Shown here one piece after another: positions 6,159-35,955 of a DNA stretch of 40,298 nucleotides; position 1 is the stretch's first letter, and every line of letters starts with the position of its first letter. Where the stretch lies: assembly GCA_017934425.1 (NCBI GenBank), contig JAGBJO010000027.1:1-40298 (forward strand), read 5' to 3'. The position numbers and the translations under genes are program-made. Source of the stretch: Ruminococcus sp. GTDB lineage: Bacteria; Bacillota; Clostridia; Oscillospirales; Ruminococcaceae. The notes beneath the pieces were generated by a model. It worked only from the letters and a program-made list of their open reading frames with translations. It made no database searches and was not told the DNA's origin.

Positions 6159-6180
6159 TCTGCACTTAGGGAGGTGCAGA
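6159..6180 (+). promoter_or_regulatory. Leader hairpin before the xylanase RBS
   Basis: TCTGCAC (6159-6165) pairs with GTGCAGA (6174-6180) around an 8-base loop, ending about 10 bases before the GGGAGGG ribosome binding site. It could affect mRNA stability or translation. Confidence 0.4.
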
Positions 6181-6203
6181 CTATCAGAATGGGAGGGTCA
6201 TTT

Positions 6204-9200
6204 ATGAAAAAGATGTTCAGGAAAATTACTGCTTCACTGACCGCTGCTGCTTGTCTTGCCGAACTTACAGCGGCATTTCCGCAGATAATCATGCCTGCAA
6301 GCGCTGCCGAGGTCGTAAGCAACGACTTCGAGGTAAACTACGGCGGCTGGCACGGCACAAACACCGATACTGAACTTACTGCCTATGAGAATATCGGTGC
6401 TGACGGTTCAAGAGGTATGCTGGTATCAGGCAGAACTTCCCCCAGCGAGGGCGCAAGTTCATCAAAGGGTCTGTACCTCTCCGGCGGAGTTGAGTACGAC
6501 TACTCCGTTAAGGTTTTCAGCGAGAGCGACCAGAAGTTCACCCTGTCTCTTATGTACATCGACCAGGAGACTGAGCAGGAAACTACCATTATTCTGGACG
6601 AGAAAAATGTTTCCGCAGGCAAGTGGGAGACTCTTTCCGCTTCCTTCAAAGCACCTGAGAACACATATGAGTATGAACTGAAAATAACTACCGACACTAC
6701 CGGGGACTTCCGCTTCGATGATGTGCTTATCACTACCGAAAAGGTGGCTTCTGCCTATGCTGCACCTGAAGGCAAGGGTCTGAAGGACGAGTTCGCTGAC
6801 TACTTCCGTGTTGGTAATATCTTAAACGGCGGCACTATAACTGACAGCGCTATCACCGCAAGACTCCTCAAGGACTGCAACGCTATCGAGTGTGAGAACG
6901 AGACTAAGCCCGATGCTACTCTCGTTAAGAACGGTTCTTCAAATACAAATATCAAAGTCTCACTGAATAGCTGCGCTGCTATCGCTGATTTCTGTGCAAG
7001 CCACGGTATCGGCTTCCGTGGTCATACTTTGGTTTGGCACAGCCAGACTCCTGAGTGGTTCTTCAAGGAGAACTTCGACCAGTACGGTCAGTGGGTAAGC
7101 AAGGACGTTATGAATCAGCGTATGGAAAGCTACATAAAGAATATGTTCGCTGCTTTCGCTGCCCAGTACCCCGACCTCGACCTTTACTCCTACGATGTCT
7201 GCAACGAGTGCGTAAGTGACGACTACAACCGTACCGCTAACGCCGGCGGCGCAAGAGAACCCGGCTACGGAAACGGCAAGTCCCCCTGGGTACAGATCTA
7301 CGGCAATAACTCCTTCGTTGAGCAGGCTTTCATCTACGCAAATAAGTACGCTCCCGAAGGCTGCGACCTTTACTACAATGATTATAATGAATACTGGGAT
7401 CACAAGCGTGACTGCATCTATACCATGTGCAAGAGCCTTTACGAAAAAGGTCTGCTGGACGGCGTTGGTATGCAGTCCCATATCGGCGCTGAGTGGGAAG
7501 GCTTCACAGGCGTAAGCACTTACGTCAGCGCTATGAAGAAGTACCTGTCTATCGGCTGCGATGTTCAGATAACTGAGCTTGATATAAGCGTTGATAACGG
7601 CAAGTACTCCTACGAAGACCAGGCTAAGAAGTATGAGGCTATTTTCAAGGCTGCTAAGGAATGGAACGAGAATCCTCAGTCCGACGGACGTGTTACTCTC
7701 GTTCAGGTATGGGGTCCTGATGACGGTCACTCATGGCTGAAATCCGGCAGCAACGGTTTGCTTTATGACGCAAGCGGCAACCCAAAGGCTGCTTACAACA
7801 GAGTTACTTCCATGATCCCCGACAGCGAGTGGGGCGACGGTTCTCACTACTCCGGCAGCCATGTTATCAAGGACATCGAGCCTGACGAGAACGGCTACTT
7901 CTTCCACAGCACTTTCGAGGGCGACATGGATAACTGGTCTGGCAGAGGCGACGGCACAGTCATGACAAGCGGCAGAACCGCTTATGAGGGTAAGGAAGCC
8001 CTCCTGGTACAGAACCGTACAGCTTCATGGAACGGCGCTATCCGTCCGCTGGGCAGAGCTTTCAAGGCTGGCACAGCTTACAGCTTCTCCGCTAACGTTT
8101 CCTACTTCGACGGCGGCGATTATGATACTTTCCACCTGACACTACAGTATCAGGACGCTGACGGCAAGCCTCACTACGACAAGATCGCTTCCGGCGACTG
8201 CGCTCAGGGCGAGTGGTTACAGCTTAAAAATGAAAGCTACACACTCCCTGAGGGTGCTACAGATATGTATATCTACGTTGAGACCGACAAGACTGAAAAT
8301 AACTTCTACATCGACGATATCTACGGCGCTGTTGAGGGTACTGTCATTGGTGGCGCAGGTCAGCCTGTTATCAAGATCGTTCGCCCCGGCGACCTGAACT
8401 TCGACGGCAAGATAAACGTTTTCGATATGGTCGAAGCAAGAGAATGTCTTGCTAATGCTCCTACTGACAGCAAAGTCCTCAGAGCTGCTGATACCGACGG
8501 CAACGGCAAGTTCGAGGTAAATGACCTGGTTCTCATGAATCAGTACGTCGTTGGTGTACTGGCTGACTTCCCTGAGCCTGAGATCGTTGAGCCTCCTAAG
8601 AGCGATTACAAGTATGTTGAGAATATGCAGTACAAGGCTGCTCCCAGCAACTACCTTGACGAATGCTCACAGAAGGGTACTATCATCAACGAGTCCTACA
8701 ACGGCATCAACGGCACTAACAAGCTGAATGTTTATCTCCCTTACGGCTACGACGCTAACAAGCAGTACAACATCTTCTACCTGATGCACGGCGGCGGAGA
8801 GAACGAGAATACCATTTTCAGCAAGGACGTTAAGCTGGCTAATATCCTCGACCACATGATTATGAACGGCGAACTCGAACCCCTTATCGTTGTAACTCCT
8901 ACCTTCAACAAGACTGAGGCTGGAAAGTTCTACGACGAGTTCAGAAAGAGCGTTGTTCCTTTCGTTGAGGGCAAGTATTCCACATACGCTAAGTCCACCT
9001 CCGAGGCTGACCTGAAGGCTTCCAGAATGCACCGTGCATACGGCGGATTCTCAATGGGCGCACTTTCAACATGGTGCGTGGCTGACCATGATATGGATCT
9101 GGTTGGTTACTTCATGCCTCTGAGCGGTAATAACTGGGAGGGTATGAACTCCCTGACAAAGGAGATAAATTCTCTTGGTCTTGCAAAGAACCAGTACTTC

Positions 9201-9413
9201 TTCTTCTGCGCTACAGGTTCAGAGGATCTGGCTTACGGCAACATGAAGCCCGAAATGGAAGACCTGAAGAACCGCTCCGAATTTACCTACACCTCCGACT
9301 TCTCCAAGGGCAACTTCTACTTCATGGTTGCTCAGGGCAATGTTCACTGGTGGGGACAGGTCAGAAACTACGTTTACGACGCACTTCCTACCTTCTTCCA
9401 CGAAGGTCAGTAA
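6204..9413 (+). CDS. Cellulosomal bifunctional xylanase (GH10) / feruloyl esterase (CE1)
   Basis: A 1069-residue secreted enzyme. Modules in order: signal peptide (1 to about 35, ending PASAA); CBM22 (about 36-185); GH10 endo-xylanase (about 192-550); second CBM22 (about 555-720); type I dockerin (about 728-792, Ca loops starting DLNFDGKINVFD and DTDGNGKFEVND); CE1 esterase (about 800-1069). GH10 acid/base is Glu335 in DVCNEC and the nucleophile is Glu458 in ITELD. The CE1 triad is likely Ser950 (GFSMG), Asp1008 (GSED) and His1048 (VHWW). The enzyme should cut xylan and release ferulate crosslinks while docked on a scaffoldin outside the cell. The module order, with the dockerin inside the protein, is the one I recall for XynY of Clostridium thermocellum. 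The start is set by GGGAGGG eight bases upstream. Confidence 0.95.
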   Translation: MKKMFRKITASLTAAACLAELTAAFPQIIMPASAAEVVSNDFEVNYGGWHGTNTDTELTAYENIGADGSRGMLVSGRTSPSEGASSSKGLYLSGGVEYDYSVKVFSESDQKFTLSLMYIDQETEQETTIILDEKNVSAGKWETLSASFKAPENTYEYELKITTDTTGDFRFDDVLITTEKVASAYAAPEGKGLKDEFADYFRVGNILNGGTITDSAITARLLKDCNAIECENETKPDATLVKNGSSNTNIKVSLNSCAAIADFCASHGIGFRGHTLVWHSQTPEWFFKENFDQYGQWVSKDVMNQRMESYIKNMFAAFAAQYPDLDLYSYDVCNECVSDDYNRTANAGGAREPGYGNGKSPWVQIYGNNSFVEQAFIYANKYAPEGCDLYYNDYNEYWDHKRDCIYTMCKSLYEKGLLDGVGMQSHIGAEWEGFTGVSTYVSAMKKYLSIGCDVQITELDISVDNGKYSYEDQAKKYEAIFKAAKEWNENPQSDGRVTLVQVWGPDDGHSWLKSGSNGLLYDASGNPKAAYNRVTSMIPDSEWGDGSHYSGSHVIKDIEPDENGYFFHSTFEGDMDNWSGRGDGTVMTSGRTAYEGKEALLVQNRTASWNGAIRPLGRAFKAGTAYSFSANVSYFDGGDYDTFHLTLQYQDADGKPHYDKIASGDCAQGEWLQLKNESYTLPEGATDMYIYVETDKTENNFYIDDIYGAVEGTVIGGAGQPVIKIVRPGDLNFDGKINVFDMVEARECLANAPTDSKVLRAADTDGNGKFEVNDLVLMNQYVVGVLADFPEPEIVEPPKSDYKYVENMQYKAAPSNYLDECSQKGTIINESYNGINGTNKLNVYLPYGYDANKQYNIFYLMHGGGENENTIFSKDVKLANILDHMIMNGELEPLIVVTPTFNKTEAGKFYDEFRKSVVPFVEGKYSTYAKSTSEADLKASRMHRAYGGFSMGALSTWCVADHDMDLVGYFMPLSGNNWEGMNSLTKEINSLGLAKNQYFFFCATGSEDLAYGNMKPEMEDLKNRSEFTYTSDFSKGNFYFMVAQGNVHWWGQVRNYVYDALPTFFHEGQ

Positions 9414-10887: not shown

Positions 10888-12027
10888 ATGAACAGAAACG
10901 AGTACCGCAAGAATGCTTACGATATGCTCCACCTTGTGGCAAGTATTATAAACGGAAAGAAACCCTCATCAAAGCGTTTGCAGCAGATGGACTTAGATGC
11001 TGTTTTTGAGATAGCACAGTCTCATTCACTTACCGCTGTCTGCGCCTATGCTCTGGAAAGCTGCGGCATCAACCGCCCGGACTTTACTGAGGCTAAGAAC
11101 AAGTCTATCCGCAAGAACGTGCTTATGGACTGCGACAGAGAGGAGCTTTTCGCTGCACTCGAAAAAGAACACATATGGCATATGCCCCTTAAAGGCATAC
11201 TGCTGAAAAATATCTACCCTCGTCTGGGTATGAGACAAATGGCAGATAACGATATCCTTTTTGATCCGGAATACCGTGAGCGTATCAGGGAGATCATGGA
11301 GTCTATGGGATATAGTTGTGATAAGTTCGGTGCTGGAAGACACGACTGCTACCACAAAGAGCCTTCCTGTAATTTCAAGCTTTTCTCCGGACTCATCAAG
11401 GACTCCGCTGATGAGCGTATACGCAGCTACTACAGGCATATAATGGAGAAGCTTATCCTCCGCCCCGGTACTGATTGCGAGTATGAGTTCGGTCTGAACG
11501 ACTTCTACATCTTCATGACTGTGAACGAATACCTTCACTACTCCAGCGGCGGCACAGGTCTGAGAAGCTTGCTGGACGCTTATGTATTCCTCGGCAGGTT
11601 CTCAAATAAGCTTGACAGGGAGTATATCAGCGAGGAACTGAAAAAACTTGGTGCTGCGGACTATGAGAATATGCGTACCTATATCGCACTTACCCTTTTC
11701 AGGTACGGCGGTCTGAATCTGGAGGACAAGAAGATACTTGACTACTATATCTTCTCCGGCGCATACGGAACAGTGAGAAATACTATCTCCAACGGTATCG
11801 GTCAGAAGAACCACGGTTCTAAGCTCCACTACGTCTGGGGCAGACTTTTCCCCGGCATGGGCTGGCTGAAAGAGTACTACCCGTTCTTCTACAGACACAG
11901 AATATTCCTGCCGCTTCTGTTTCCGTTCCGCATAATCAAGGGCATCTTCTTACATCGTGATAAACTCCGCTATGAAGCGAATGTTCTGCTTCACCGCAGG
12001 TTCGAGAAGGTGTCAAAATGGCAGTAA
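10888..12027 (+). CDS. Nucleotidyltransferase family protein (NTP_transf_5 type)
   Basis: A 379-residue protein matching the uncharacterised NTP_transf_5 family. A helical N-terminal part (AQSHSLTAVCAYAL) is followed by the core MPLKGILLKNIYP, then MRQMADNDILF, whose two Asp residues (D-N-D) are the expected metal ligands, and a C-terminal helical domain. The family shares the polymerase-beta nucleotidyltransferase fold; substrates are unknown, and members often occur near polysaccharide or peptide-modification genes. AGAGGTGA precedes the ATG. The 3' end overlaps kptA by 10 bases, so the two are co-translated and may act on a common substrate. Confidence 0.8.
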   Translation: MNRNEYRKNAYDMLHLVASIINGKKPSSKRLQQMDLDAVFEIAQSHSLTAVCAYALESCGINRPDFTEAKNKSIRKNVLMDCDREELFAALEKEHIWHMPLKGILLKNIYPRLGMRQMADNDILFDPEYRERIREIMESMGYSCDKFGAGRHDCYHKEPSCNFKLFSGLIKDSADERIRSYYRHIMEKLILRPGTDCEYEFGLNDFYIFMTVNEYLHYSSGGTGLRSLLDAYVFLGRFSNKLDREYISEELKKLGAADYENMRTYIALTLFRYGGLNLEDKKILDYYIFSGAYGTVRNTISNGIGQKNHGSKLHYVWGRLFPGMGWLKEYYPFFYRHRIFLPLLFPFRIIKGIFLHRDKLRYEANVLLHRRFEKVSKWQ

Positions 12028-12590
12028 ATAAGCAGAAACTCTCGGTGTACCTGTGTCTTCTCCTGCGCCACAAGCCGGAAGAAGCCGGTCTTGAAAAGGA
12101 CATGGACAGACACGGGTATGTGCCGGTAGATAAGCTGATAGCTGCGGTAAATTCCCATACCTCCTACAATATCGACAGAAGTCTCCTGGAGGAGGTAGTC
12201 TCCCAGGACGAAAAGGGAAGATACCGTTTCAGCAGCGACGGCAAAAGCATCAAATGCTGTCAGGGTCATTCCATATCCTGGATAGAGCCGGAGGTGACAG
12301 AGCAAACTCCGCCGGATAAACTTTACCACGGTACTAATACCGCTGCCGCAGACCAGATATACCAGAGCGGCAGTATAAGCAAATGTAAGCGCCACGCTGT
12401 ACATATGCAGGCTGATATAGAAAAAGCCTGGCAGTCCGCAAGGCGCTGGAAGGGAAAAACTCCGGTAGTCCTTGAGATCGACAGCGCCGCTATGCACCGT
12501 GACGGGATAAGGTTCTTCGTCAGCGATAACGGCGTATGGCTCACCGAGGAAGTACTGGTAAAATACATATCATCACAGCACTTTTCTTGA
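12018..12590 (+). CDS. kptA: RNA 2'-phosphotransferase (KptA/Tpt1)
   Basis: A 190-residue member of the Tpt1/KptA family, which uses NAD+ to remove an internal RNA 2'-phosphate via an ADP-ribosylated intermediate. The expected Arg-His-Arg-Arg tetrad can be placed at Arg17 and His18 (LLLRHKPE), Arg68 (DEKGRYRF) and Arg125 (KCKRHAVHM). Also visible are the QGHS motif (about 82-85), the NAD-site YHGT (about 103-106) and the C-terminal NGVWLT. The length is normal for the bacterial family. Bacteria mostly lack the tRNA-splicing pathway that generates 2'-phosphates, so the physiological substrate is unknown. The ATG lies inside the upstream gene's 3' end, with GAAGGTG as ribosome binding site. Confidence 0.92.
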   Translation: MAVNKQKLSVYLCLLLRHKPEEAGLEKDMDRHGYVPVDKLIAAVNSHTSYNIDRSLLEEVVSQDEKGRYRFSSDGKSIKCCQGHSISWIEPEVTEQTPPDKLYHGTNTAAADQIYQSGSISKCKRHAVHMQADIEKAWQSARRWKGKTPVVLEIDSAAMHRDGIRFFVSDNGVWLTEEVLVKYISSQHFS

Positions 12591-14675: not shown

Positions 14676-14683
14676 TAACCAAA

Positions 14684-14721
14684 AAAACGGCAGATACTTC
14701 CAAAGTACCTGCCGTTTTTTT
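14684..14721 (+). terminator. Intrinsic terminator after galE
   Basis: A 16-bp stem (AAAACGGCAGATACTT with AAGTACCTGCCGTTTT, one mismatch), a 3-base loop and a seven-T run. It lies between the convergent galE and heptad-repeat genes. Confidence 0.92.
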
Positions 14722-14750
14722 ATTTAGGCAACACCGCACAGTTATATAAC

Positions 14751-17591
14751 TTAGTCTGTGCCGTCGAACATATAGATGAACTTTACTGTGCCGTCCATAT
14801 CGTCGGACTTTCCGGAGAATGAGGTGTACTGCTGAGATGCCTCACGGACTGCCTTGAAGCGGTCGATGATGTCCGGAAGCTGCTCATCAAGTGCGCCGGT
14901 GATCTTGCTTATGCCCTCGTCATTGAACTTTATCATGCCCTCGTTCAGTTCCTTTGCGCCGTTTTTAAGCTGGGAAACTCCGTCTACCAGTGCCGCTGTT
15001 CCGTCGTTCAGGGTACTTACTCCGCCGTAGAGTTCCGATGCGCCGCCGCTGAGTGAGGAAGCACCTGCGCTGAGTTCAGATGCGCCGGAAGCTACCTTCT
15101 TCATGTTGCTGCTTATCTCGCCTGCACCGGCGTAAAGCTTATTGCCGCCTGCAAGAAGCTGTGCAAGTCCGCCGTCCAGTTCCGCTGAACCTGCGCCCAG
15201 ATCGGAAAGTCCCTCGGACAGTGAAAGTGAACCAGTGTAAAGCTGTGCTGTACCGGCTTTCAGGTCAGTTGCGCCTGCGGTGAGCCGAGAAAGTCCCATA
15301 TTAAGGGAATAGTTACCCTCGGAAAGCTGACGGATACCGTCTGCAAGGGAATCAAGTCCGCCGATAAGTGTACCGCTGCCCTGAGAAAATGCAGTGATAC
15401 CGCCGTTTAAGTCGCTTGCGCCCTTTGAGAGTGCCTCTGCGCCCTGGGCAAGGAGTACTGACGAACCGGAAAGCTGCTGCGCACCGGCTGAAAGTGCCTG
15501 ACCGCCGTTGTCGAGGGTATCCATTCCCTCGGAAAGCTGTGCAGAACCGGTCTGCGCATTTTCAAGCCCTGCACTAAGCTGACCAAGACCTGCGGAAACG
15601 GCTGAGATTCCGTCGGAGAATTCTGCCATTTTGCCGCCAAGCTGCGCTGCGCCATCAGTAAGCTGAGATACGCCGCCGCTTATCTGCTGTGCGCCATCGG
15701 CAAGTGCAGAAGCGCCGTCGCTAAGCTGTCCGCCCTCCTGCATCTGTGCAGCTATTTGCTGCTGACCGTCGATAGTCTGCTGAAGTATACCGATAGCCTG
15801 CGCCAGTTCCTCGGAGGGTGACTGCTGATAGAGTGCGGTCAGTGCAGAGAGTGCCTGCTGATTGTAAGCTATGGTGGTACTCAGGCTTTCCCCGGCAGTA
15901 TCTATACCCTGCGAAAGCTGCTGTGCGCCCTCGGTAAGCTGGTCAGTTCCGGCAGTAAGAGCGTCCTTGCCCTGTGCAAGAGCCGCAGCGCCTTCGGAAA
16001 GCTGCTGTGCGCCGACACTGAGAGCATCAGCGCCCTGGGCTATTGTGTCAGCGCCGGTCTTAGCGTCGGAGATTCCCTTTGCAAGAGCGTCAGCGCCGGA
16101 GTGTGCGGAGGTTATGCCCTGTGAAAGCTGCTGTGCGGAGTCGCTGAGGGTCTTAGCGCCTTCGGAGAATTTAGCCATATTTCCGGAAAGTTCGCCTGCT
16201 CCTGATTCAAGCTTAGCGCTGCCGTCAGATATCTGTGCAACGCCGTCAGTAAGAGCGCCTGCGCCGTCTTTAAGCTGCTGTGCGCCGTCAGTTACCTGAG
16301 TGAATCCGGCGGTAAGCTGGTCAGAACCGTCCTTTGCTTCGCCCAGACCGTCAGCAAGCTGAGAAGCGCCCTCGTCAGCGGACTTCATGCCCTCGGCTAA
16401 TGCGTCAGCGCCCTCCTTTGCGGCAGAAGCGCCATCGGCAAGTTTACCAGAGCCGTCCTTAGCAGAAGCGATGCCGTCTGACAGTTCCTTTGCGCCGGAG
16501 GTGAGGGTATCTGCGCCCTCGGAAAGTTTACCAGAACCGGAGGAAAGTTCGTCTGCGCCTGATTTAAGCTGGAGTGAACCGTCTTTGAGCTGTGCTGAAC
16601 CGTCGAGAAGTTTATTAACTCCGTCGGTAAGTTCGCCCGACTTATCGGAAAGCTGAGAGATACCGTCGTAGAGTTCGGCAGTACCGTCGCAAAGCTGCTC
16701 AGCGCCGTCGGAGAGTTCCTTTATCTTGTCACTGAGGTCGCCCAGGTCAATATCTTCATCTAAGTCCATATCGGAGAATATCTCGTTAGATACTACAGTT
16801 ACGGAGGAATTCATCTCGAAGCCGGTAACGTCAGCGGATATCTCGAAGTAGTCCGGGATATTCACGTCCAGACCGTCAATTTCGTCCAGACCCAGGTCAT
16901 CGCCCAGACTTGGGAATCCCATACCAACAGCGATAAGGCGTTCGCCGTCGGAGATTATCTTGCCGTTGGTGACTTCAGCGTTCAGGAACTTGGAAGTATC
17001 CAGAACAGCGGCGCTTGCAGCCATGAACGGAACGTGCATTTCCTGCTTCTTGCCGTCAACAGTTACCTGAGTGGTCTGGTTATTCTTGTAGTCCCAGCGG
17101 ATAGTGACATGACCGCTTTTGCCCTTGAGGGAATCAAGGGAAATGGGATTGCCGTTAAGGAAGTAGGAGATAGTAACATCAACGGGGAGCGCCTTGTCGG
17201 AAGTACCCTTGTAGTAGATATCATTGCCTTCAGCCTTCCAGCTTAATGAATCGCCGGACTGATCGAAAACCTCGTCGCCCTTGACGTTTACGATATCCGC
17301 AAGGTCGGATATATCGGATATATTTGAAAGTGCCTGGGGATTTTTCAGCCAGTCGCTTACAATAACGTTCTTAACAGCGCTGTCGCCGCCGCAGAGGACG
17401 TAAACTGTCTCGTCCTTTGAAAGCAGAGCATCAGTGGCTTCTCTTTCGGTATCAGTTCCGGCGGAATTTTCCGGGGATTCCTTTTCATTTGTCTGAGCCT
17501 TTGAGTTCTTTGCGATTGCGATAGAACCTGTAGCGCCTGCGGAAACTGCAATAGCAAGTGCAGCAGCAATAACTCTTTTATAAGTTTTCAT
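14751..17591 (-). CDS. Secreted x-x-x-Leu-x-x-Gly heptad-repeat protein, partner of the MMPL pump
   Basis: A 946-residue protein with a signal peptide or N-terminal anchor (about 1-25) and an extracytoplasmic N-terminal domain (about 40-285). It then has an unbroken run of 7-residue repeats of the form xxxLxxG. Counting by hand, arm 1 (297-562) is exactly 38 heptads, a 57-residue non-heptad tip follows (563-619), and arm 2 (620-885) is again 38 heptads, with 61 residues at the C-terminus. I see no proline in either arm; Pro592 sits at the middle of the tip. This predicts a long antiparallel helical hairpin. The heptad type resembles that in YhgE/Pip proteins, but there is no C-terminal membrane domain. 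The gene follows the pump gene by 85 bases. The start is set by GAAAGGAG upstream of the ATG. Confidence 0.85.
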   Translation of the reverse strand: MKTYKRVIAAALAIAVSAGATGSIAIAKNSKAQTNEKESPENSAGTDTEREATDALLSKDETVYVLCGGDSAVKNVIVSDWLKNPQALSNISDISDLADIVNVKGDEVFDQSGDSLSWKAEGNDIYYKGTSDKALPVDVTISYFLNGNPISLDSLKGKSGHVTIRWDYKNNQTTQVTVDGKKQEMHVPFMAASAAVLDTSKFLNAEVTNGKIISDGERLIAVGMGFPSLGDDLGLDEIDGLDVNIPDYFEISADVTGFEMNSSVTVVSNEIFSDMDLDEDIDLGDLSDKIKELSDGAEQLCDGTAELYDGISQLSDKSGELTDGVNKLLDGSAQLKDGSLQLKSGADELSSGSGKLSEGADTLTSGAKELSDGIASAKDGSGKLADGASAAKEGADALAEGMKSADEGASQLADGLGEAKDGSDQLTAGFTQVTDGAQQLKDGAGALTDGVAQISDGSAKLESGAGELSGNMAKFSEGAKTLSDSAQQLSQGITSAHSGADALAKGISDAKTGADTIAQGADALSVGAQQLSEGAAALAQGKDALTAGTDQLTEGAQQLSQGIDTAGESLSTTIAYNQQALSALTALYQQSPSEELAQAIGILQQTIDGQQQIAAQMQEGGQLSDGASALADGAQQISGGVSQLTDGAAQLGGKMAEFSDGISAVSAGLGQLSAGLENAQTGSAQLSEGMDTLDNGGQALSAGAQQLSGSSVLLAQGAEALSKGASDLNGGITAFSQGSGTLIGGLDSLADGIRQLSEGNYSLNMGLSRLTAGATDLKAGTAQLYTGSLSLSEGLSDLGAGSAELDGGLAQLLAGGNKLYAGAGEISSNMKKVASGASELSAGASSLSGGASELYGGVSTLNDGTAALVDGVSQLKNGAKELNEGMIKFNDEGISKITGALDEQLPDIIDRFKAVREASQQYTSFSGKSDDMDGTVKFIYMFDGTD

Positions 17592-17630: not shown

Positions 17631-17654
17631 CCCCTCCGCCGAACTGCGGAGGGG
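17631..17654 (-). promoter_or_regulatory. Intercistronic hairpin between pump and heptad-repeat genes
   Basis: A perfect 9-bp stem (CCCCTCCGC with GCGGAGGGG) with a 6-base loop lies between the two minus-strand genes. On the minus strand it is followed by AAAACAAAAA, not a U-run, so it is more likely an RNA-stability or partial read-through element than a terminator. Confidence 0.55.
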
Positions 17655-17676: not shown

Positions 17677-19785
17677 TCAGTGAACAGGACTGAGTTCCTG
17701 TTCATTGGAAACAGGTGTGCCAGTCGAGGGCTTGAAGCCGGAACTGGTCTTGCAGATAAGCTTGTCAAAAAGCATGAACATGGAAGGCAGCACTCCGATG
17801 ACTACCACCATTGATATCAGCGCACCTCTTGAAAGGAGTACGCACAGTGATGAGATAAGTCCGATATCTGAGTAGAACGCAACGCCTACTGTTGCCGCAA
17901 AGAAGCCTAAAGCGGAGGTTATTACGGACTTGATCGAAGTACTGAGGGATATGGTGATTGCCTCAGTTCTGGATTTTCCGCTGCTGCGCTCAGTGCGGTA
18001 GCGGGTGGTCATGAGTATCGCATAGTCAACGGTTGCGCCAAGCTGGATAGTACCGATAACTACCGATGCGATGAAAGGCAGTTCAGTGCCGGTATAGTAG
18101 GCGATTCCCAGATTTATCATGATAGCAAGCTCGATAACTGAGACAAGTATTACCGGCAGAGAAACGGACTTGAAAGTAATGGCTATGATAAGGAAGATAA
18201 CAGCGATAGAAAGTATGCTTACTACCTTGAAGTCATTGTCGGTTATTTCGATAAGGTCTTTTGTGGCAGGTGCTTCACCGATAAGCATTGCCTTGCTGTC
18301 GTACTTCTTTATGATGTCTTTGAGGGCAGATACCTGTTCATTTACTTCGTCGGAAGCTACTTCGTACTCCGAGCCGATAAGGATAAGCTGCCACTTATCG
18401 CCTTTGAGTACTCCCTTGATATCGTCGGGGAGGACTTCCTCAGGGATAGCTGAGCCTACCAGTGAATCCATACCCATTGCGAACTGTACGCCGTCTACAT
18501 CTTCGATCTCGTTCATCATCTTCTTAGCGCTCTTGGAGGGAAGTTTTGCGTCAGCTAAGAGGATATGGGTGCTTGGCATATTGAAATCCTCCTGAAGCTT
18601 TGTGTTAGCGATAACGCTTTCCAGTTCAGCCGGGAGAGTGCTGTCAAGCTTGTAGTAGACGTTATAGTGGTTGTAGCCGTAGAACGCCGGGATAAGTACC
18701 ACAACGGCGGCTGTTATGAATATCCACGACTTCTTCACGATGAACTCTGATATTCCGCTAAGGTCGGGCATCAGGTCACGGTGAGAGGTCATTGTTATGG
18801 GCTTCTCGAAAATGAGTATCATTGCCGGAAGTACTGTTACGCAGGAAATAACGCCGCATACAACGCCCTTTGCCATAACGATTCCCAGGTCAAGACCGAG
18901 TGTGAAACTCATAAAGCACATTGCCAGGAATCCGGCAACGGTAGTGAATGAACTGCTGACAACGGAAGTAATGGTAGCGGCGATTGCGTGCGCCATAGCT
19001 TCCTGCTTGTTGTCGTAGGTGAGGAGCTGTTCCTTGTAGCTGTGCCAGAGGAAAATGGAGTAGTCCATAGTAACGCCAAGCTGGAGTACAAGTGCAAGCG
19101 CCTGAGTGAGGAAGGATATCTCGCCCATGAAGAAGTTAGAGCCTAAGTTCCAGGCGATAGCAAGACCGATGCTCGCCATGAAGAAAACCGGTATAAGGAA
19201 CGAATCCATAGCCAGCACAAGCACGATGCTTGTGAGGATAACCGCTATAACGGCGTAGATAATGGACTCGCTGTCGGAAAGGTGCTTCATATCGTCGGTG
19301 ATAGCACTCATTCCGCTGATGAACACCTGCTCGCCGGTTATCTCACGCATACGGTCAACGGCTGCGAGAGTGCCGTCGGCGGAAGTGGTGTCGTCGAAGA
19401 ATACCGCCATCATGGTAGTGTCGCCCTTGTTGAAAAAGTCGAACACCTTCTGGGGGAGTATCTCTTTCGGGATAGTAAGGTCAGTGAGTGACTGGTAGCA
19501 TACCACGTCGGAAACGTGATCCACAGCTTTGAGTTTATCAGCCGTAGCCGCCACGTCCTTGTCGCTCATGCCCTCCACCAGAACCAGTGAAAAGCCTCCC
19601 TGACCAAATTCATCTTTCAGGATATCCTGACCTACCATAGTATCAATATCCTTTGGCAGATAGGAGAGAATGTCGTAGTTGACCCGTGTGTGCAGGTAGC
19701 CGATAGCTGACGGGATAAGCAGCAGCAGACCGATCAGCAGTATCAGTACCCGGTGTTTAGCAATAAATTTTCCGAATTTAAGCAT
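17677..19785 (-). CDS. MMPL/RND-family membrane transporter
   Basis: A 702-residue polytopic membrane protein built of two similar halves. Each half has an N-terminal transmembrane helix (HRVLILLIGLLLL; KSWIFITAAVVVLI), an extracytoplasmic domain and a five-helix bundle. The MMPL signature appears twice, as TMDYSIFLWHSY and TVDYAILMTTRYR, whose Asp residues are the likely proton-relay sites. MMPL proteins export lipids or hydrophobic compounds using the proton gradient. It is the first gene after the regulated promoter, with the heptad-repeat partner downstream and tetR divergent. GAAAGGACG precedes the ATG. The substrate cannot be read from the sequence. Confidence 0.92.
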   Translation of the reverse strand: MLKFGKFIAKHRVLILLIGLLLLIPSAIGYLHTRVNYDILSYLPKDIDTMVGQDILKDEFGQGGFSLVLVEGMSDKDVAATADKLKAVDHVSDVVCYQSLTDLTIPKEILPQKVFDFFNKGDTTMMAVFFDDTTSADGTLAAVDRMREITGEQVFISGMSAITDDMKHLSDSESIIYAVIAVILTSIVLVLAMDSFLIPVFFMASIGLAIAWNLGSNFFMGEISFLTQALALVLQLGVTMDYSIFLWHSYKEQLLTYDNKQEAMAHAIAATITSVVSSSFTTVAGFLAMCFMSFTLGLDLGIVMAKGVVCGVISCVTVLPAMILIFEKPITMTSHRDLMPDLSGISEFIVKKSWIFITAAVVVLIPAFYGYNHYNVYYKLDSTLPAELESVIANTKLQEDFNMPSTHILLADAKLPSKSAKKMMNEIEDVDGVQFAMGMDSLVGSAIPEEVLPDDIKGVLKGDKWQLILIGSEYEVASDEVNEQVSALKDIIKKYDSKAMLIGEAPATKDLIEITDNDFKVVSILSIAVIFLIIAITFKSVSLPVILVSVIELAIMINLGIAYYTGTELPFIASVVIGTIQLGATVDYAILMTTRYRTERSSGKSRTEAITISLSTSIKSVITSALGFFAATVGVAFYSDIGLISSLCVLLSRGALISMVVVIGVLPSMFMLFDKLICKTSSGFKPSTGTPVSNEQELSPVH

Positions 19786-19828: not shown

Positions 19829-19857
19829 AGTATATTCCAAAAATGACCGATAGTCAA
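19829..19857 (-). promoter_or_regulatory. Promoter of the MMPL operon
   Basis: On the minus strand TTGACT (19852-19857), a 17-base spacer, and TATACT (19829-19834). The -35 box overlaps the first 13-bp palindrome, so binding there would block RNA polymerase. Confidence 0.8.
19844..19856. promoter_or_regulatory. Candidate TetR operator O1
   Basis: TGACCGATAGTCA is a 13-base palindrome of the form TGACY-N3-RGTCA, overlapping the -35 box of the MMPL promoter. Confidence 0.75.
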
Positions 19858-19876: not shown

Positions 19877-19889
19877 TGACTTTTGGTCA
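19877..19889. promoter_or_regulatory. Candidate TetR operator O2
   Basis: TGACTTTTGGTCA has the same TGACY-N3-RGTCA form. Its centre is 33 bases from O1, close to three helical turns. Confidence 0.7.
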
Positions 19890-19929: not shown

Positions 19930-19942
19930 TGACCAGTAGTCA
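19930..19942. promoter_or_regulatory. Candidate TetR operator O3
   Basis: TGACCAGTAGTCA has the same form. Its centre is 53 bases from O2 (about five turns), and it lies 10 bases upstream of the tetR -35 box. Confidence 0.7.
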
Positions 19943-19952
19943 TTTTGCAAGC

Positions 19953-19981
19953 TTGACAGGGAGGGAATTATGCAGTATAAT
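19953..19981 (+). promoter_or_regulatory. Consensus promoter of tetR
   Basis: TTGACA (19953-19958), a 17-base spacer, and TATAAT (19976-19981), a perfect sigma-A consensus. Confidence 0.85.
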
Positions 19982-20059
19982 AGTATAAAGATGCCGGAAA
20001 GTTAACCGGAGTTTACTAAGTATAAATGATGCTGAAAGAAAAGGAATGAGGTGAATCTT

Positions 20060-20668
20060 ATGGGAAAGATCGACACCAACAAACAGCAGAAGGAATCATC
20101 TCTGCTTAAAACAGCTTTTGAATTTTTTACTACCAAAGGCTTCAGCAAGACCTCTATTTCCGATATTGTAAGCAAGGCTGGCGTTGCAAAGGGTACTTTC
20201 TACCTTTACTTCAAGGATAAGTATGATATCCGCAACAGACTGGTAGCGCACAAGTCCAGCCAGCTTCTCACCAACGCTGTCAAGGCGCTTTCACCGGGGC
20301 TTGGGACAATGGCGTTTGAGGACAAGATAATCAGCATACTGGACAATATCCTGGGGCAGCTGAATGAGAACCAGTCGCTCCTTACATTTATTTCCAAGAA
20401 CCTTAGCTGGGGGCTTTTCAAGAATACCTACAGCGCTCCCATTGCTGAGGACGACGTGGATTTCAGAGAGATATACCGCACTATGCTGGAGGACGCACCC
20501 TGCAAGTTCCGTGATCCGGAGATAATGCTTTTTATGATAATCGAGCTTACCTCCTCCACCTGTTACCAGGCTATACTCAATAAAGAGCCTTGTGATATCG
20601 AAAGCCTTAAACCATACCTTTTCCAGACGGTAAGGCTTATCATCGAAAACCACAAGCTGAGCGAATGA
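20060..20668 (+). CDS. TetR/AcrR-family transcriptional regulator
   Basis: A 202-residue DNA-binding regulator. The N-terminal helix-turn-helix (about residues 15-60) carries the TetR hallmarks FTTKGFSKTSISDI and AGVAKGTFYLYFKDK; the C-terminal part is a variable ligand-binding domain. It is divergent from the MMPL operon, and the shared intergenic region holds three copies of one palindrome, so it probably represses the pump and itself. The ATG at 20060 is preferred over the GTG at 20051 because GAGGTGA sits at ribosome-binding distance. The inducer is unknown but is plausibly a pump substrate. Confidence 0.9.
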   Translation: MGKIDTNKQQKESSLLKTAFEFFTTKGFSKTSISDIVSKAGVAKGTFYLYFKDKYDIRNRLVAHKSSQLLTNAVKALSPGLGTMAFEDKIISILDNILGQLNENQSLLTFISKNLSWGLFKNTYSAPIAEDDVDFREIYRTMLEDAPCKFRDPEIMLFMIIELTSSTCYQAILNKEPCDIESLKPYLFQTVRLIIENHKLSE

Positions 20669-20923: not shown

Positions 20924-20957
20924 TAAGGTAACATTAATGTAAAGGAGTTTGATATCT

Positions 20958-23372
20958 ATGAAGATACTCAAAAAGGCACTGGCTGCTGCTACTTCCTCAG
21001 TTATGGCAGCTTCTATGTGCATCATCGACATCGGCAGCTTAGGCACTGCCAATGCCGCAGACATGACCGCCGTTGAGCTTGTTGAGGATATGGGTCAGGG
21101 TTGGAATTTAGGCAACACCTTCGACTGCACCAATACCTGGACAAACCCACTCACCCCTACAGCTATTGAGACTGCATGGGGCAACCCCGAAACCACAGAA
21201 GCCATGATAAAGGAGATCAAGAAAAGCGGTTTCAATACCGTCCGTATCCCTATCACATGGTATCAGATGATGTCCTCTGACGGCTCATCTATCAATGAGG
21301 ATTACGTTGCACGTATCAAGAAAGTAGTGGGCTATGTGCTGGATAACGGTATGTACGCTATCATCAACACCCACCACGATGAGGACTGGATAAAGTCTGA
21401 GAGCAATACCACTAAGTTCACAAACCTCTGGAAGGCTATTGCTGCTAATTTTGCAAGCTATGACGAGCATCTGGTATTCGAGGGTACTAACGAGGTTTCC
21501 TTCTCTACCTCCGCTCAGCAGCAGACCTTCAACCAGGCTTTCGTTGATACCGTCCGTGCTACAGGCGGCAATAACGCTAAGCGTCTGCTTCTGGTGTGCG
21601 CTCCCAGCAATAACACCTCCAAGCTGCTTAATGACTTTACTGCTCCTACCGATTCAGCTAAGATGATCGCTGTTTCATGCCATTACTACGAGCCACCGCA
21701 GTTCTGCGTTGCCAAGACCACTTCTACCTGGGGTCACCAGGAGACATGGGGCAGCAATGCTGACAAGACTACCCTCCAGAATGACTTCGACAAGCTGGAG
21801 AATAAGTTCATCAAGAATGGTATCCCCGTTATCATCGGTGAGTACGGCGTTGATACAAGTACCGAGGGCGGCAAGGACAAGGAGTCTATGTACGCATTCC
21901 TGAAGGAAGTTGCTACCTACGCTCTTGGCAAGGAAGGTATGTGCCCTGTAGTATGGGATATGTCAGTATACAATAACGGCGCAGGCGATATGGCTTACTT
22001 CAACAGATCTGCACTTTCCTGGTATGACAGCAAGATCGGTGAGATCTTCGCATCTGCTGCAAATTCCGGCGGCGGTTCTGATACTACAAAGTCTGACAGA
22101 ATAAATATCAATGCCGCTGATATTGCTGCTACTGACAAGAACGGCAAGACCTACTGGCAGATCGACCTGAAACCCTACAAGGAGTATGGCGTAAATCCTG
22201 AGTCTGCTGTTGTTAACTTCACTATCACACAGACCGACGGCACAAACACGGAAATGAGCGGCGATATCGCTGCAAGCTTCAATGTTAAGACTGATGCTGG
22301 CACTCTGGCTTATTCAAATATTGATACTGTTGTAGGCATCAACGATTCTACAGCCGTTATCGACTTAAAGCCTGATACATTCAATATCGCATGGGACGAT
22401 GACGGCGCTGTTACTGAGACTGCTGCCGGCGTTATCGACATGGATTACCTGAAACTTGAAAACTGGTGGACATGGTGCAAGTCCGGCGAGGCTTCTATCA
22501 CTATCGACTCTGTTACTCTTATTTTCGACGGCAATATCCCCGTTGAGGGCGATCAGGTAACTACCACAACTGAGACAGTTACCACAACAACTACTTCCAC
22601 AACTACAGCTACCGAGACTACCACAACAACAGCTACTACAACTTCTGATCCTGACGTTACTACTGAGTCCTACACAGGCGTTTACGCTAACGCTTATCTG
22701 GCTGGTTCTGTAGGCTCAAACTCTGTATGGAGTGCTACTGAGGCTGCTGATACCGAGAATATGGCAGAGGTTGACGGCAATGGTACTTTCGAGGTACAGT
22801 GGAATCTGGCTGAAGGCTCTGAGACTATCGACTTCCTCATGCTGGAGATCGAGAGCATTGATGAGTTCGACAGCTACTTCACTACTGACACATTCCCCAA
22901 CCTGACACTTACTATCGACCACTTCTACATTGACGGCGTTGAGCAGACTCTCGCTGACGAGCCTGACGCTGTTAACCTGAGATACTTCGAGAATACAGGA
23001 AAGACCAGAGCTTATTTCAGAGCAAACTGGGGCGCTAACGGCGGTGTTGACTTCGGTATCTCCGGCGACACTACTGTTGAGAAGACTATCAAGGTAGTAT
23101 TCACGATTGGTGGTACTTACAAGGAAGGCACAAGCAACGTTTCTTCCGGAGACAAGATCTGGGGCGACGCTGACGGAAACGAAGAACTGACTATCTCCGA
23201 TATCGTTATGGTTCTTCAGTACTCCGCTAACAAGGCTAAGTACAGCCTTTCCGACAAGGCACTTGCAAACTGCGATGTAAACGCTGATAATGTTGTTGAT
23301 GCTAAGGACGCTTTCATCATGCAGCAGATCGACGCAGGCGTTGTAACAGTAGCAGAGCTTCCCCTGAAGTAA
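20958..23372 (+). CDS. Cellulosomal GH5 endoglucanase with two accessory modules and dockerin
   Basis: An 804-residue secreted enzyme. Modules in order: signal peptide (1 to about 34, ending TANAAD); GH5 catalytic domain (about 36-370); a beta-rich module (about 380-530); a Thr-rich linker (about 534-571); a second beta-rich module (about 572-725); and a C-terminal type I dockerin (about 732-804, Ca loops starting DADGNEELTISD and DVNADNVVDAKD). The GH5 acid/base is Glu179 in EGTNEV and the nucleophile is Glu295 in IGEYG; NTHHDEDW carries conserved active-site His residues. GH5 enzymes of this kind cut beta-1,4-glucan or related hemicelluloses; subfamily 4 is plausible. I cannot assign the two extra modules to a named CBM family. 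AAAGGAG precedes the ATG. Confidence 0.93.
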   Translation: MKILKKALAAATSSVMAASMCIIDIGSLGTANAADMTAVELVEDMGQGWNLGNTFDCTNTWTNPLTPTAIETAWGNPETTEAMIKEIKKSGFNTVRIPITWYQMMSSDGSSINEDYVARIKKVVGYVLDNGMYAIINTHHDEDWIKSESNTTKFTNLWKAIAANFASYDEHLVFEGTNEVSFSTSAQQQTFNQAFVDTVRATGGNNAKRLLLVCAPSNNTSKLLNDFTAPTDSAKMIAVSCHYYEPPQFCVAKTTSTWGHQETWGSNADKTTLQNDFDKLENKFIKNGIPVIIGEYGVDTSTEGGKDKESMYAFLKEVATYALGKEGMCPVVWDMSVYNNGAGDMAYFNRSALSWYDSKIGEIFASAANSGGGSDTTKSDRININAADIAATDKNGKTYWQIDLKPYKEYGVNPESAVVNFTITQTDGTNTEMSGDIAASFNVKTDAGTLAYSNIDTVVGINDSTAVIDLKPDTFNIAWDDDGAVTETAAGVIDMDYLKLENWWTWCKSGEASITIDSVTLIFDGNIPVEGDQVTTTTETVTTTTTSTTTATETTTTTATTTSDPDVTTESYTGVYANAYLAGSVGSNSVWSATEAADTENMAEVDGNGTFEVQWNLAEGSETIDFLMLEIESIDEFDSYFTTDTFPNLTLTIDHFYIDGVEQTLADEPDAVNLRYFENTGKTRAYFRANWGANGGVDFGISGDTTVEKTIKVVFTIGGTYKEGTSNVSSGDKIWGDADGNEELTISDIVMVLQYSANKAKYSLSDKALANCDVNADNVVDAKDAFIMQQIDAGVVTVAELPLK

Positions 23373-35864: not shown

Positions 35865-35955
35865 GACCCCATCGTACAAGCTTTAGCACCTTACATTATT
35901 GCAGGTTGCTGTGCGGTCAACGGGCTTGTCCCTCACGCACTCTTTATGGTAGCTT
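35865..35955 (-). ncRNA. SAM-clan riboswitch (SAM-I or SAM-I/IV type)
   Basis: The minus-strand leader contains the S-box core in order: AAAGAG, GAGGGAC (35928-35934), GCCCGTTGA, GCAACC (35904-35909), and AAGGTGCTAA (35883-35892). P2 is GUGCG (35936-35940) with CGCAC (35911-35915); P3 is CCU/AGG around a short loop; P1 may be AAGCU/AGCUU or CCAU/AUGG. The P4 helix of classical SAM-I is short or absent, which is why I leave the subtype open. The 12-base word TACGATGGGGTC occurs at 35865-35876 and again as the 3' strand of the terminator (35823-35834), so the first copy can act as antiterminator. SAM binding would then switch the gene off. Confidence 0.82.

Follow-up and report, generated by a model that had tools for sequence, protein, structure and literature searches.

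The 40,298-nucleotide contig JAGBJO010000027.1 of Ruminococcus sp. (assembly GCA_017934425.1), called the window below, encodes on its reverse strand a predicted secreted protein of 946 residues, in which two equal arms of xxxLxxG heptads flank a short tip, directly behind the gene of an MMPL-type RND transporter. An antiparallel hairpin topology, proposed earlier from the letters of the window (the sequence-only reading), is strongly supported by our results: the two arms co-vary in length among homologues, their insertions and deletions (indels) are mirrored about the tip (r 0.97 over 10 pairs), side chains match sterically near the predicted register, and an AlphaFold2 model turns at residues 591-593. 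On balance, we favour the view that the hairpin is a dedicated extracellular partner of the pump, a rod that would carry or guide its product.

A protein with two equal heptad arms

The hairpin gene and the parts of its product are as follows.

14751-17591 including stop, reverse strand: predicted secreted hairpin protein, 946 residues (translation, ribosome-binding site, TIGR03057 match)
17511-17591, reverse strand: signal peptide, residues ~1-27 (read from the sequence; sole hydrophobic segment in the protein; helix 3-29 in both structure models)
16773-17420, reverse strand: β-rich base domain, residues 58-273 (10-residue block means of 66-97 in the AlphaFold2 model, and a second model of residues 1-297)
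15906-16703, reverse strand: arm 1, residues 297-562, 38 heptads (heptad count; helical in the AlphaFold2 model)
15735-15905, reverse strand: tip, residues 563-619; the chain turns at Pro592 (15816-15818; residues 591-593 in the AlphaFold2 model)
14937-15734, reverse strand: arm 2, residues 620-885, 38 heptads (heptad count; helical in the AlphaFold2 model)
14754-14936, reverse strand: C-terminal tail, residues 886-946, with a strand at 933-942 (AlphaFold2 block means of 78-89 over 901-946)

The gene starts with the ATG at 17591, with an AGGAG ribosome-binding site on its 5' side, and its stop codon lies at 14751-14753. In a hydropathy scan, the signal peptide was the only membrane-type segment of the protein; from the signal peptide and the lack of other transmembrane segments the protein is predicted to be secreted, and cleavage probably follows AIA. 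The NCBIfam model TIGR03057 matched 20 stretches of the protein, with 203.1 bits against a curated cut-off of 18.6 (E 7.1e-62). Strict heptads, with Leu at position 4 and Gly at position 7, accounted for 25 of 38 in arm 1 and 29 of 38 in arm 2, and conservative heptads (LIVMFA and GSN) for 37 of 38 in each arm; shuffled versions of arm 1 gave at most five strict matches (2000 shuffles). An automatic run-finder made arm 1 one heptad longer (290-562, 39 heptads). The prolines of the protein are residues 40, 85, 136, 149, 188, 227, 246, 592 and 906, so that both arms are free of proline. Heptad count and proline positions thus confirmed the 38 + 38 heptads (297-562 and 620-885) and the proline-free arms of the sequence-only reading. 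Its placing of Pro592 at the exact centre of the tip was not accurate, since residues 563-619 are centred on Ser591 and Pro592 is one residue off. Proline-free arms are not universal: at least one arm proline was found in 20 of the 76 homologues described next.

Arm lengths change together among homologues

Close loci were taken as the window plus the best 80 of 518 encoding stretches from a contig scan; 69 of these 80 records are titled Ruminococcus, and the remainder Oscillospiraceae, Clostridia or similar, with one Alistipes. The arm table comprised 76 complete close homologues, arm 1 being counted from residue ~290 to the tip proline. Four proteins whose frame lies at a contig end (L093, L115, L120 and L152) and one whose arm 2 and tail are not intact (L085) were left out.

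The extremes were 232 and 421 residues for arm 1 and 223 and 412 for arm 2, and the two lengths correlated with r 0.998 and a slope of 1.015. Arms that differed freely in length would have spoken against a hairpin; the arms were found to change together. Arm 1 minus arm 2 was 9 residues in 69 of the 76 proteins, 11 in four, 12 in two and -12 in L116, so the difference stayed within 3 residues of the common value in 75 of 76. In 72 of 76 proteins, the tip proline lay under 2 residues from the point halfway between the base anchors; it was 3 residues away in two and 11 away in L116, and was absent in L129. This midpoint count was used for the proline, since the windows of the tip-entropy analysis were centred on proline and their 74 of 74 is by construction. 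L116 (7001-10117) was the only protein with a clear arm mismatch (337 against 349 residues, three heptads off the rule); it comes from a metagenome assembly, and an assembly error within the repeats is possible.

The correlation held when shared ancestry was considered. On a tree of base domain and MMPL, with the arms excluded, the minimum number of length changes was 21 for arm 1 and 22 for arm 2, and independent contrasts between the arms gave r 0.996 with a slope of 1.03. When the signs of the contrasts were flipped, none of 2000 trials exceeded 0.92, a ceiling that is high because large contrasts are few. At 0.15 nm per residue, the rod of the window would measure ~45 nm from base to tip, and those of close homologues ~35-63 nm (records titled Ruminococcus); some much shorter relatives occur elsewhere in the class, with open frames from 451 residues. 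Length changes while the arms stay equal, which suggests that the integrity of the rod, and not its length, is the conserved property. The family thus offers a natural experiment in protein evolution, in which helices hundreds of residues long have stayed equal through at least 21 changes.

Indels and side chains match in antiparallel register

If the arms are packed antiparallel, an indel in one arm is expected to be answered at equal height in the other. Between the window and L080, arm 1 showed a 7-residue difference at 251-258 and a 28-residue difference at 49-77 residues from the tip, and arm 2 showed a 7-residue difference at 241-248 and a 28-residue difference at 50-78. Over 10 pairs of homologues, the median indel places in the two arms correlated with r 0.97, and their mean distance was 13 residues; random placement gave 84 residues when uniform and 65 when permuted (p 5e-5 in both cases, the lowest value that 20,000 trials can yield). 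We selected the pairs by eye on the tree; L119/L107 and L116/L098 share a branch, and L145/L130, of equal length, was dropped.

In the DNA of the 76 genes, tandem arrays with a period of at least 42 bp were present in both arms of 14 genes, in one arm of 16 and in neither arm of 46. The four genes with arrays of period 84 bp or more in both arms (L100, L130, L138 and L149) all carried them at the same heights, with overlaps of 0.73-0.93; in L149, the 126-bp units spanned ~118-279 and 118-281 residues from the tip proline. Short arrays were often unmirrored, with an overlap of 0 in L083, L078, L081 and L087 and of 0.23 in L107. Some homologues thus contain long tandem duplications at matching height in both arms. 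The 126-bp arrays (42 residues, six heptads), of similar copy number and at mirrored heights, lie at 8309-8793 and 9501-9988 in L149 and at 8106-8526 and 9613-9963 in L100.

We further compared side-chain volumes between the arms. The 76 proteins were reduced to 41 non-redundant ones, namely the 69 with the common offset minus those at least 80% identical at equal length. The mean side-chain volume of each heptad position was subtracted, and arm 1 was compared with arm 2, both read outward from the tip, at shifts from -63 to 63. The strongest of the 127 antiparallel shifts were -1 (+0.18), 6 (-0.15) and 2 (-0.13), which lie near the predicted register. As controls, the parallel comparison had a maximum of 0.107 at shift 17, and rotation of arm 2 by multiples of 14 (seven distinct shifts) gave at most 0.067 near zero. 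The correlation was present along the whole rod, from tip through base. Its signal came from the residue after Gly lying opposite its counterpart; the Leu position of arm 1 against the residue after Gly of arm 2 gave the opposite sign, large against small. Hydropathy in place of volume gave a weak signal. In agreement with the packing test, the heptad positions that were low in entropy and nearly uncharged were Gly, the residue after it (Gly+1) and Leu.

These results bear on a parallel or multi-chain rod, in which the arms would have become equal through tandem duplication or exchange between repeats. The arms are indeed repetitive, and some relatives carry arrays of 84-168 bp, which 11 of them have in a single arm. 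Such a rod is largely refuted by the mirrored, not parallel, indels and by an antiparallel steric correlation of 0.18 against a parallel maximum of 0.11; the midpoint proline in nearly all homologues and the turn of the model point the same way, and we regard this alternative as exceedingly improbable.

Mean column entropy over 74 rows was 0.97 bits in the tip, 1.06 in the base domain past the signal region, 1.17 in the C-terminal tail and 1.4-2.0 in the arms, where the value is inflated by indels because the arm alignment contained no gaps; L105 and L129 were excluded from the tip entropy. Within the hairpin, the tip is thus what close homologues conserve best. In wider relatives, the centre between the outer heptads varies greatly in length and proline content.

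The conserved stripe and tip would also suit a rigid spacer or tether that anchors the pump in the peptidoglycan mesh or keeps a distance, with the product diffusing freely. A single buried-looking stripe (Leu, Gly and Gly+1), with the other positions small, polar or charged and more variable, resembles a lone two-helix rod; the length differs among close homologues, and the well-conserved tip is what a binding tip would show. The same three-position stripe, however, suits larger bundles as well, and the usual partner of the protein is a pump, a specificity that a pure tether does not need. We therefore consider a spacer or tether unlikely.

Structure models of the hairpin and its base

AlphaFold2, run on the protein alone with 40 aligned homologues, produced a hairpin of two helices (284-590 and 594-921), with modest confidence in the arms (mean predicted local distance difference test, pLDDT, 70.9; predicted template modelling score, pTM, 0.42). 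The confident part was the base domain (58-273) together with the C-terminal tail, and the model suggests that the C-terminal strand 933-942 goes back to the base domain and packs on it. The only breaks in the first helix were 350-354 and 528-533, and those in the second were 618-621, 651-654 and 831-839; the pairs 350-354/831-839 and 528-533/651-654 are mirrored about the turn.

Residues 1-297 modelled alone reached a mean pLDDT of 74.8. Pfam gave no match to residues 1-297 of the window protein, Foldseek gave no fold match in the PDB for their model at E≤1e-3, and a PDB sequence search with the base profile returned nothing better than profilin (E 0.9). A mu-homology fold was considered on account of matches of the full model (E 3e-6 to 2e-4); these were gone for the base domain alone (E≤1e-3), so they serve as a lead and no fold was assigned. 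Pfam searches of 49 base domains gave scattered weak matches in relatives, the best being PPDK_N (E 1.8e-4, 4 of 49), which were taken as chance. A widespread transporter partner thus apparently has a base domain without a curated family model.

The hairpin gene is linked to one MMPL subfamily

The neighbouring pump gene is given below.

17677-19785, reverse strand: MMPL (RND) transporter, 702 residues (Pfam MMPL, 182.2 bits against a cut-off of 20.5; two GxTxDY motifs)

The MMPL gene lies upstream in the same operon and ends 85 bases before the start of the hairpin gene. Two GxTxDY-type motifs were found in 77 of the 79 MMPL open frames scanned and one in the other two; the Asp-Tyr pair in both halves of the MMPL is presumably the proton relay. 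In close relatives, the pump open frames measure ~690-790 residues where unbroken and uncut, and the hairpin is encoded by a separate gene.

MMPL was directly upstream on the same strand in 79 of the 81 close loci, and in the remaining two the contig breaks off 43 bases (L083) and 242 bases (L091) short of the hairpin frame. A search with residues 1-297 detected the hairpin protein in 32 of 60 related genomes, and the base-domain profile matched in 109 of 391 genomes of the class (E≤1e-3). At the phylum level, 50 of 398 genomes matched. The wider set comprised 66 regions, of which 60 came from the 108 other matching genomes of the class and six from the earlier 60-genome search; MMPL was directly upstream in 64 of them.

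For co-occurrence, the window MMPL was searched for in the class, again in 391 genomes, with a cut of 200 bits. Both genes were found in 104 genomes, the hairpin alone in five, MMPL alone in five and neither in 277. Among the genomes with MMPL alone, G303 and G095 have a weakly matching partner adjacent, the locus in G323 is cut off where its contig ends, G061 has heptads spread over two frames with no visible base domain, and G167 has no hairpin next to its MMPL. Among those with the hairpin alone, G048 and G257 match only near the E cut, G276 has a 165-bit MMPL piece adjacent, and in G350 and G186 there are 28 and 321 bases between the contig start and the beginning of the hairpin. Only lower-scoring MMPL matches were present in a further 126 of the 391 genomes, and just three of these have the hairpin, which indicates that the link is to this MMPL subfamily. 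The partnership with the MMPL pump, raised in the sequence-only reading, is thus strongly supported by both gene order and co-occurrence.

A different extension was seen on the forward strand at L248 (genome G267, contig C90), where an MMPL open frame of 1405 residues, from a genome of the same order, carries a ~700-residue insert between its halves, with repeated segments by eye. It was rejected as a pump-hairpin fusion, the insert being without heptads, and suggests another way of extending an MMPL protein outward.

We also weighed a surface spike or a stalk of the adhesin type, whose only tie to the pump would be the common operon and for which the ~40 nm stalk of enterococcal PrgA would be the model. 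PrgA ranked fourth in the Foldseek list for the full model (E 1.4e-5, template modelling scores 0.23 and 0.29), among other coiled-coil proteins, and several wider relatives (e.g., L192 and L193) have a long proline-containing centre between the arms and no simple turn. Against a spike, the tip of the close homologues is a short conserved turn, the near-complete linkage to one MMPL subfamily is unexpected for an independent adhesin, and neither LPxTG nor a C-terminal membrane segment was found in any of 77 close and 66 wider proteins. A wall-anchored adhesin was rejected on the last ground, and a stalk of this kind appears quite improbable to us.

A divergent regulator and shared operator-like sites

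The remaining elements of the module are listed below.

20051-20668, forward strand: TetR-family regulator, divergent from MMPL (Pfam TetR_N)
19844-19856, 19877-19889 and 19930-19942, palindromic: three TGAC-N5-GTCA sites, likely TetR operators (pattern search)
19829-19857, reverse strand: promoter-like site for the MMPL-hairpin operon, overlapping the first palindrome (10/12 consensus, pattern only)
19953-19981, forward strand: promoter-like site for the TetR gene (12/12 consensus, pattern only)
14680-14722, reverse strand: terminator-like stem 3' of the hairpin gene (20 pairs and a T tail, pattern only)
17631-17654, reverse strand: intergenic G+C-rich stem of 9 bp, between MMPL and hairpin, lacking a U tract (read from the sequence)

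Of the 75 close loci that offer over 1 kb of room, 68 have a TetR gene no more than 1.5 kb upstream of MMPL; in the wider set, 30 of 62 loci have one. The three palindromes are the only TGAC-N5-GTCA sites in the window, compared with 0.51 expected, and three sites were reached in 3 of 100 shuffles. Of 76 close loci with sufficient room, 68 had the pattern in the 350 bases upstream of the MMPL frame and 66 had two copies or more; among random windows from the same loci, its frequency was 3.9%. Three copies were present in 50 of the 76 loci, with usual spacings of ~53 and 33 bases. The sites upstream of MMPL suggested that TGAC-N5-GTCA is likely the operator of this TetR subgroup. A count over the genome of the window was uninformative, with 12 such palindromes, including the three of the window, compared with 8 for a reversed-pattern control.

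The region as a whole contains six terminator-like sites against a shuffle mean of 5.4. The 9-bp intergenic stem possibly serves in mRNA processing or in unequal expression of the two genes. GalE adjoins the module in the window and was rejected as a member, as it was found in one locus only, that of the window.

Proposed function

A separately encoded rod tied class-wide to one MMPL subfamily makes it testable how the MMPL pumps of single-membrane bacteria deliver hydrophobic products past a thick wall. We propose that the hairpin protein would be exported by its signal peptide, and that its base domain, completed by the C-terminal strand, would be placed on the outer side of the cytoplasmic membrane, either on the pump or next to it. 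This position is suggested by the tight linkage, by a lipobox pattern in 4 of 66 wider relatives, by a looser pattern, aromatic and amphipathic, at the C-terminus of 24 of the 66 (under a strict hydrophobic-moment test, a C-terminal amphipathic helix was seen in 4 of 66) and by the analogy with MmpL5. From there, the chain would run out as one helix, turn at the tip near Pro592 and return as an equal second helix, giving a rigid antiparallel two-helix rod of ~45 nm in this strain. The rod may be part of a multi-hairpin tube or a single stalk, and would carry or guide the pump product, probably hydrophobic, from the membrane into or through the wall. TetR bound to the TGAC-N5-GTCA sites would control pump and rod jointly.

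The thickness of a Gram-positive wall is such that a rod of ~45 nm could cross it. A more specific version of the proposal is a two-part RND export system for a single-membrane envelope, in which several separate secreted hairpins of 35-63 nm would form a wall-crossing tube on the MMPL pump, as a helical barrel. It would be the monoderm counterpart of an adaptor with an outer-membrane channel; its length would be set by heptad number, and its arms would be equalised by selection at every height. We offer this version tentatively and hold it to be doubtful.

Several observations weigh against the dedicated, pump-bound hairpin. The rod length is variable and matches no constant wall, which argues against a fixed wall-thickness device. 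In wider relatives, the outer heptad runs match in length more loosely (r 0.91, Spearman 0.74, from the 61 of 66 that offered two usable runs). Tandem arrays whose period is 84 bp or more are confined to one arm in L078, L079, L081, L091, L097, L116, L118, L141, L144, L145 and L146. In the model, arm confidence is modest (block means of 42-79, with a whole-model pTM of 0.42), and the helix break at 618-621 is unpaired. As regards linkage, G167 has MMPL with no hairpin beside it, G330 has hairpin and MMPL on different contigs with another gene behind MMPL, and G025 carries a second, diverged hairpin gene (L072, 5033-7663, reverse strand; 44 + 40 heptads) with no MMPL in the fetched 14.5 kb. Finally, a lipobox fit was found in 1 of 77 close homologues (L118, within an ordinary signal peptide), and neither an LPxTG motif nor a C-terminal membrane segment was found in the close set, so that the protein would be held only by binding after signal peptide cleavage.

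Other features of the window

Outside the module, a S-adenosylmethionine (SAM) riboswitch was identified at 35866-35952 on the reverse strand (Rfam RF00162, 55.5 bits). On the forward strand, 6174-9413 and 20949-23372 encode two large secreted proteins that by eye resemble plant-cell-wall enzymes with dockerin-like repeats, and 12018-12590 is an open frame that by eye is like RNA 2'-phosphotransferase (Tpt1/KptA).

Comparison with known systems

The xxxLxxG heptad-repeat proteins covered by TIGR03057 include YhgE/Pip, whose members have membrane segments after the repeats. The sequence-only reading had pointed to YhgE/Pip-type proteins, and nothing beyond the common repeat was found to support kinship. 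No YhgE/Pip model was among the 14 NCBIfam hits (E≤0.1) or the 8 Pfam hits; the base domain of the window protein has no Pfam match, no membrane segment follows its repeats, and its model ends in a strand. Membership was therefore rejected.

In HlyD/MFP adaptors of RND pumps, a helical hairpin is inserted in a β-rich base protein. The window protein likewise combines a hairpin with a β-rich base and is encoded beside an RND-type pump, but its hairpin is far longer and no outer membrane is expected in this host. It was rejected as an HlyD/MFP adaptor, no lipoyl, β-barrel or HlyD match having been found in Pfam or NCBIfam. In a PADLOC scan, the ZorA, JetC and DruC matches lay in the heptads only and were likewise discarded.

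SMC and Rad50 models also matched the heptads only, with 25-55 bits against cut-offs of 567-1087, and were rejected. The arms of SMC/Rad50 are reported to be a long antiparallel coiled coil whose strands are equal and whose arm length is constrained (PMC5344682). The likeness lies in this equal-stranded long coiled coil; the window protein differs in being predicted to be extracellular, with a β-rich base and without ATPase heads.

For enterococcal PrgA, the consulted part of the source describes a ~40 nm stalk on a Gram-positive surface protein that presents a domain far from the wall (PMC10588982). PrgA is wall-anchored with its domain at the tip, and that part mentions no link to a pump.

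The best solved relatives of the window MMPL were MmpL4 (E 1.4e-16) and MmpL5 (E 4.4e-15). Mycobacterial MmpL5 is reported to have an antiparallel hairpin of 12.5-13 nm that forms a tube in the trimer and whose deletion abolishes efflux (PMC12501195, PMC12346298), and hairpins of MmpL4, MmpL5 and MmpL10 are reported to form a tube in the trimer (PMC12346298, PMC12501195, PMC12183618). The two systems share an MMPL-family pump and a two-helix hairpin on the outer side, but in MmpL4/5/10 the hairpin is an insertion in the pump of ~12.5-14 nm, whereas the window pump of 702 residues has no such insertion. The hairpin of the window is a separate, predicted secreted protein with its own base domain and xxxLxxG repeats, and is about three times as long.

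A search of the open-access literature found no description of a separate secreted hairpin partner of an MMPL pump, which does not imply that none is in print. The TIGR03057 repeat, MMPL pumps and hairpins built into MMPL proteins were already known; what appears to be new here is a long hairpin as a separate protein of an MMPL pump.

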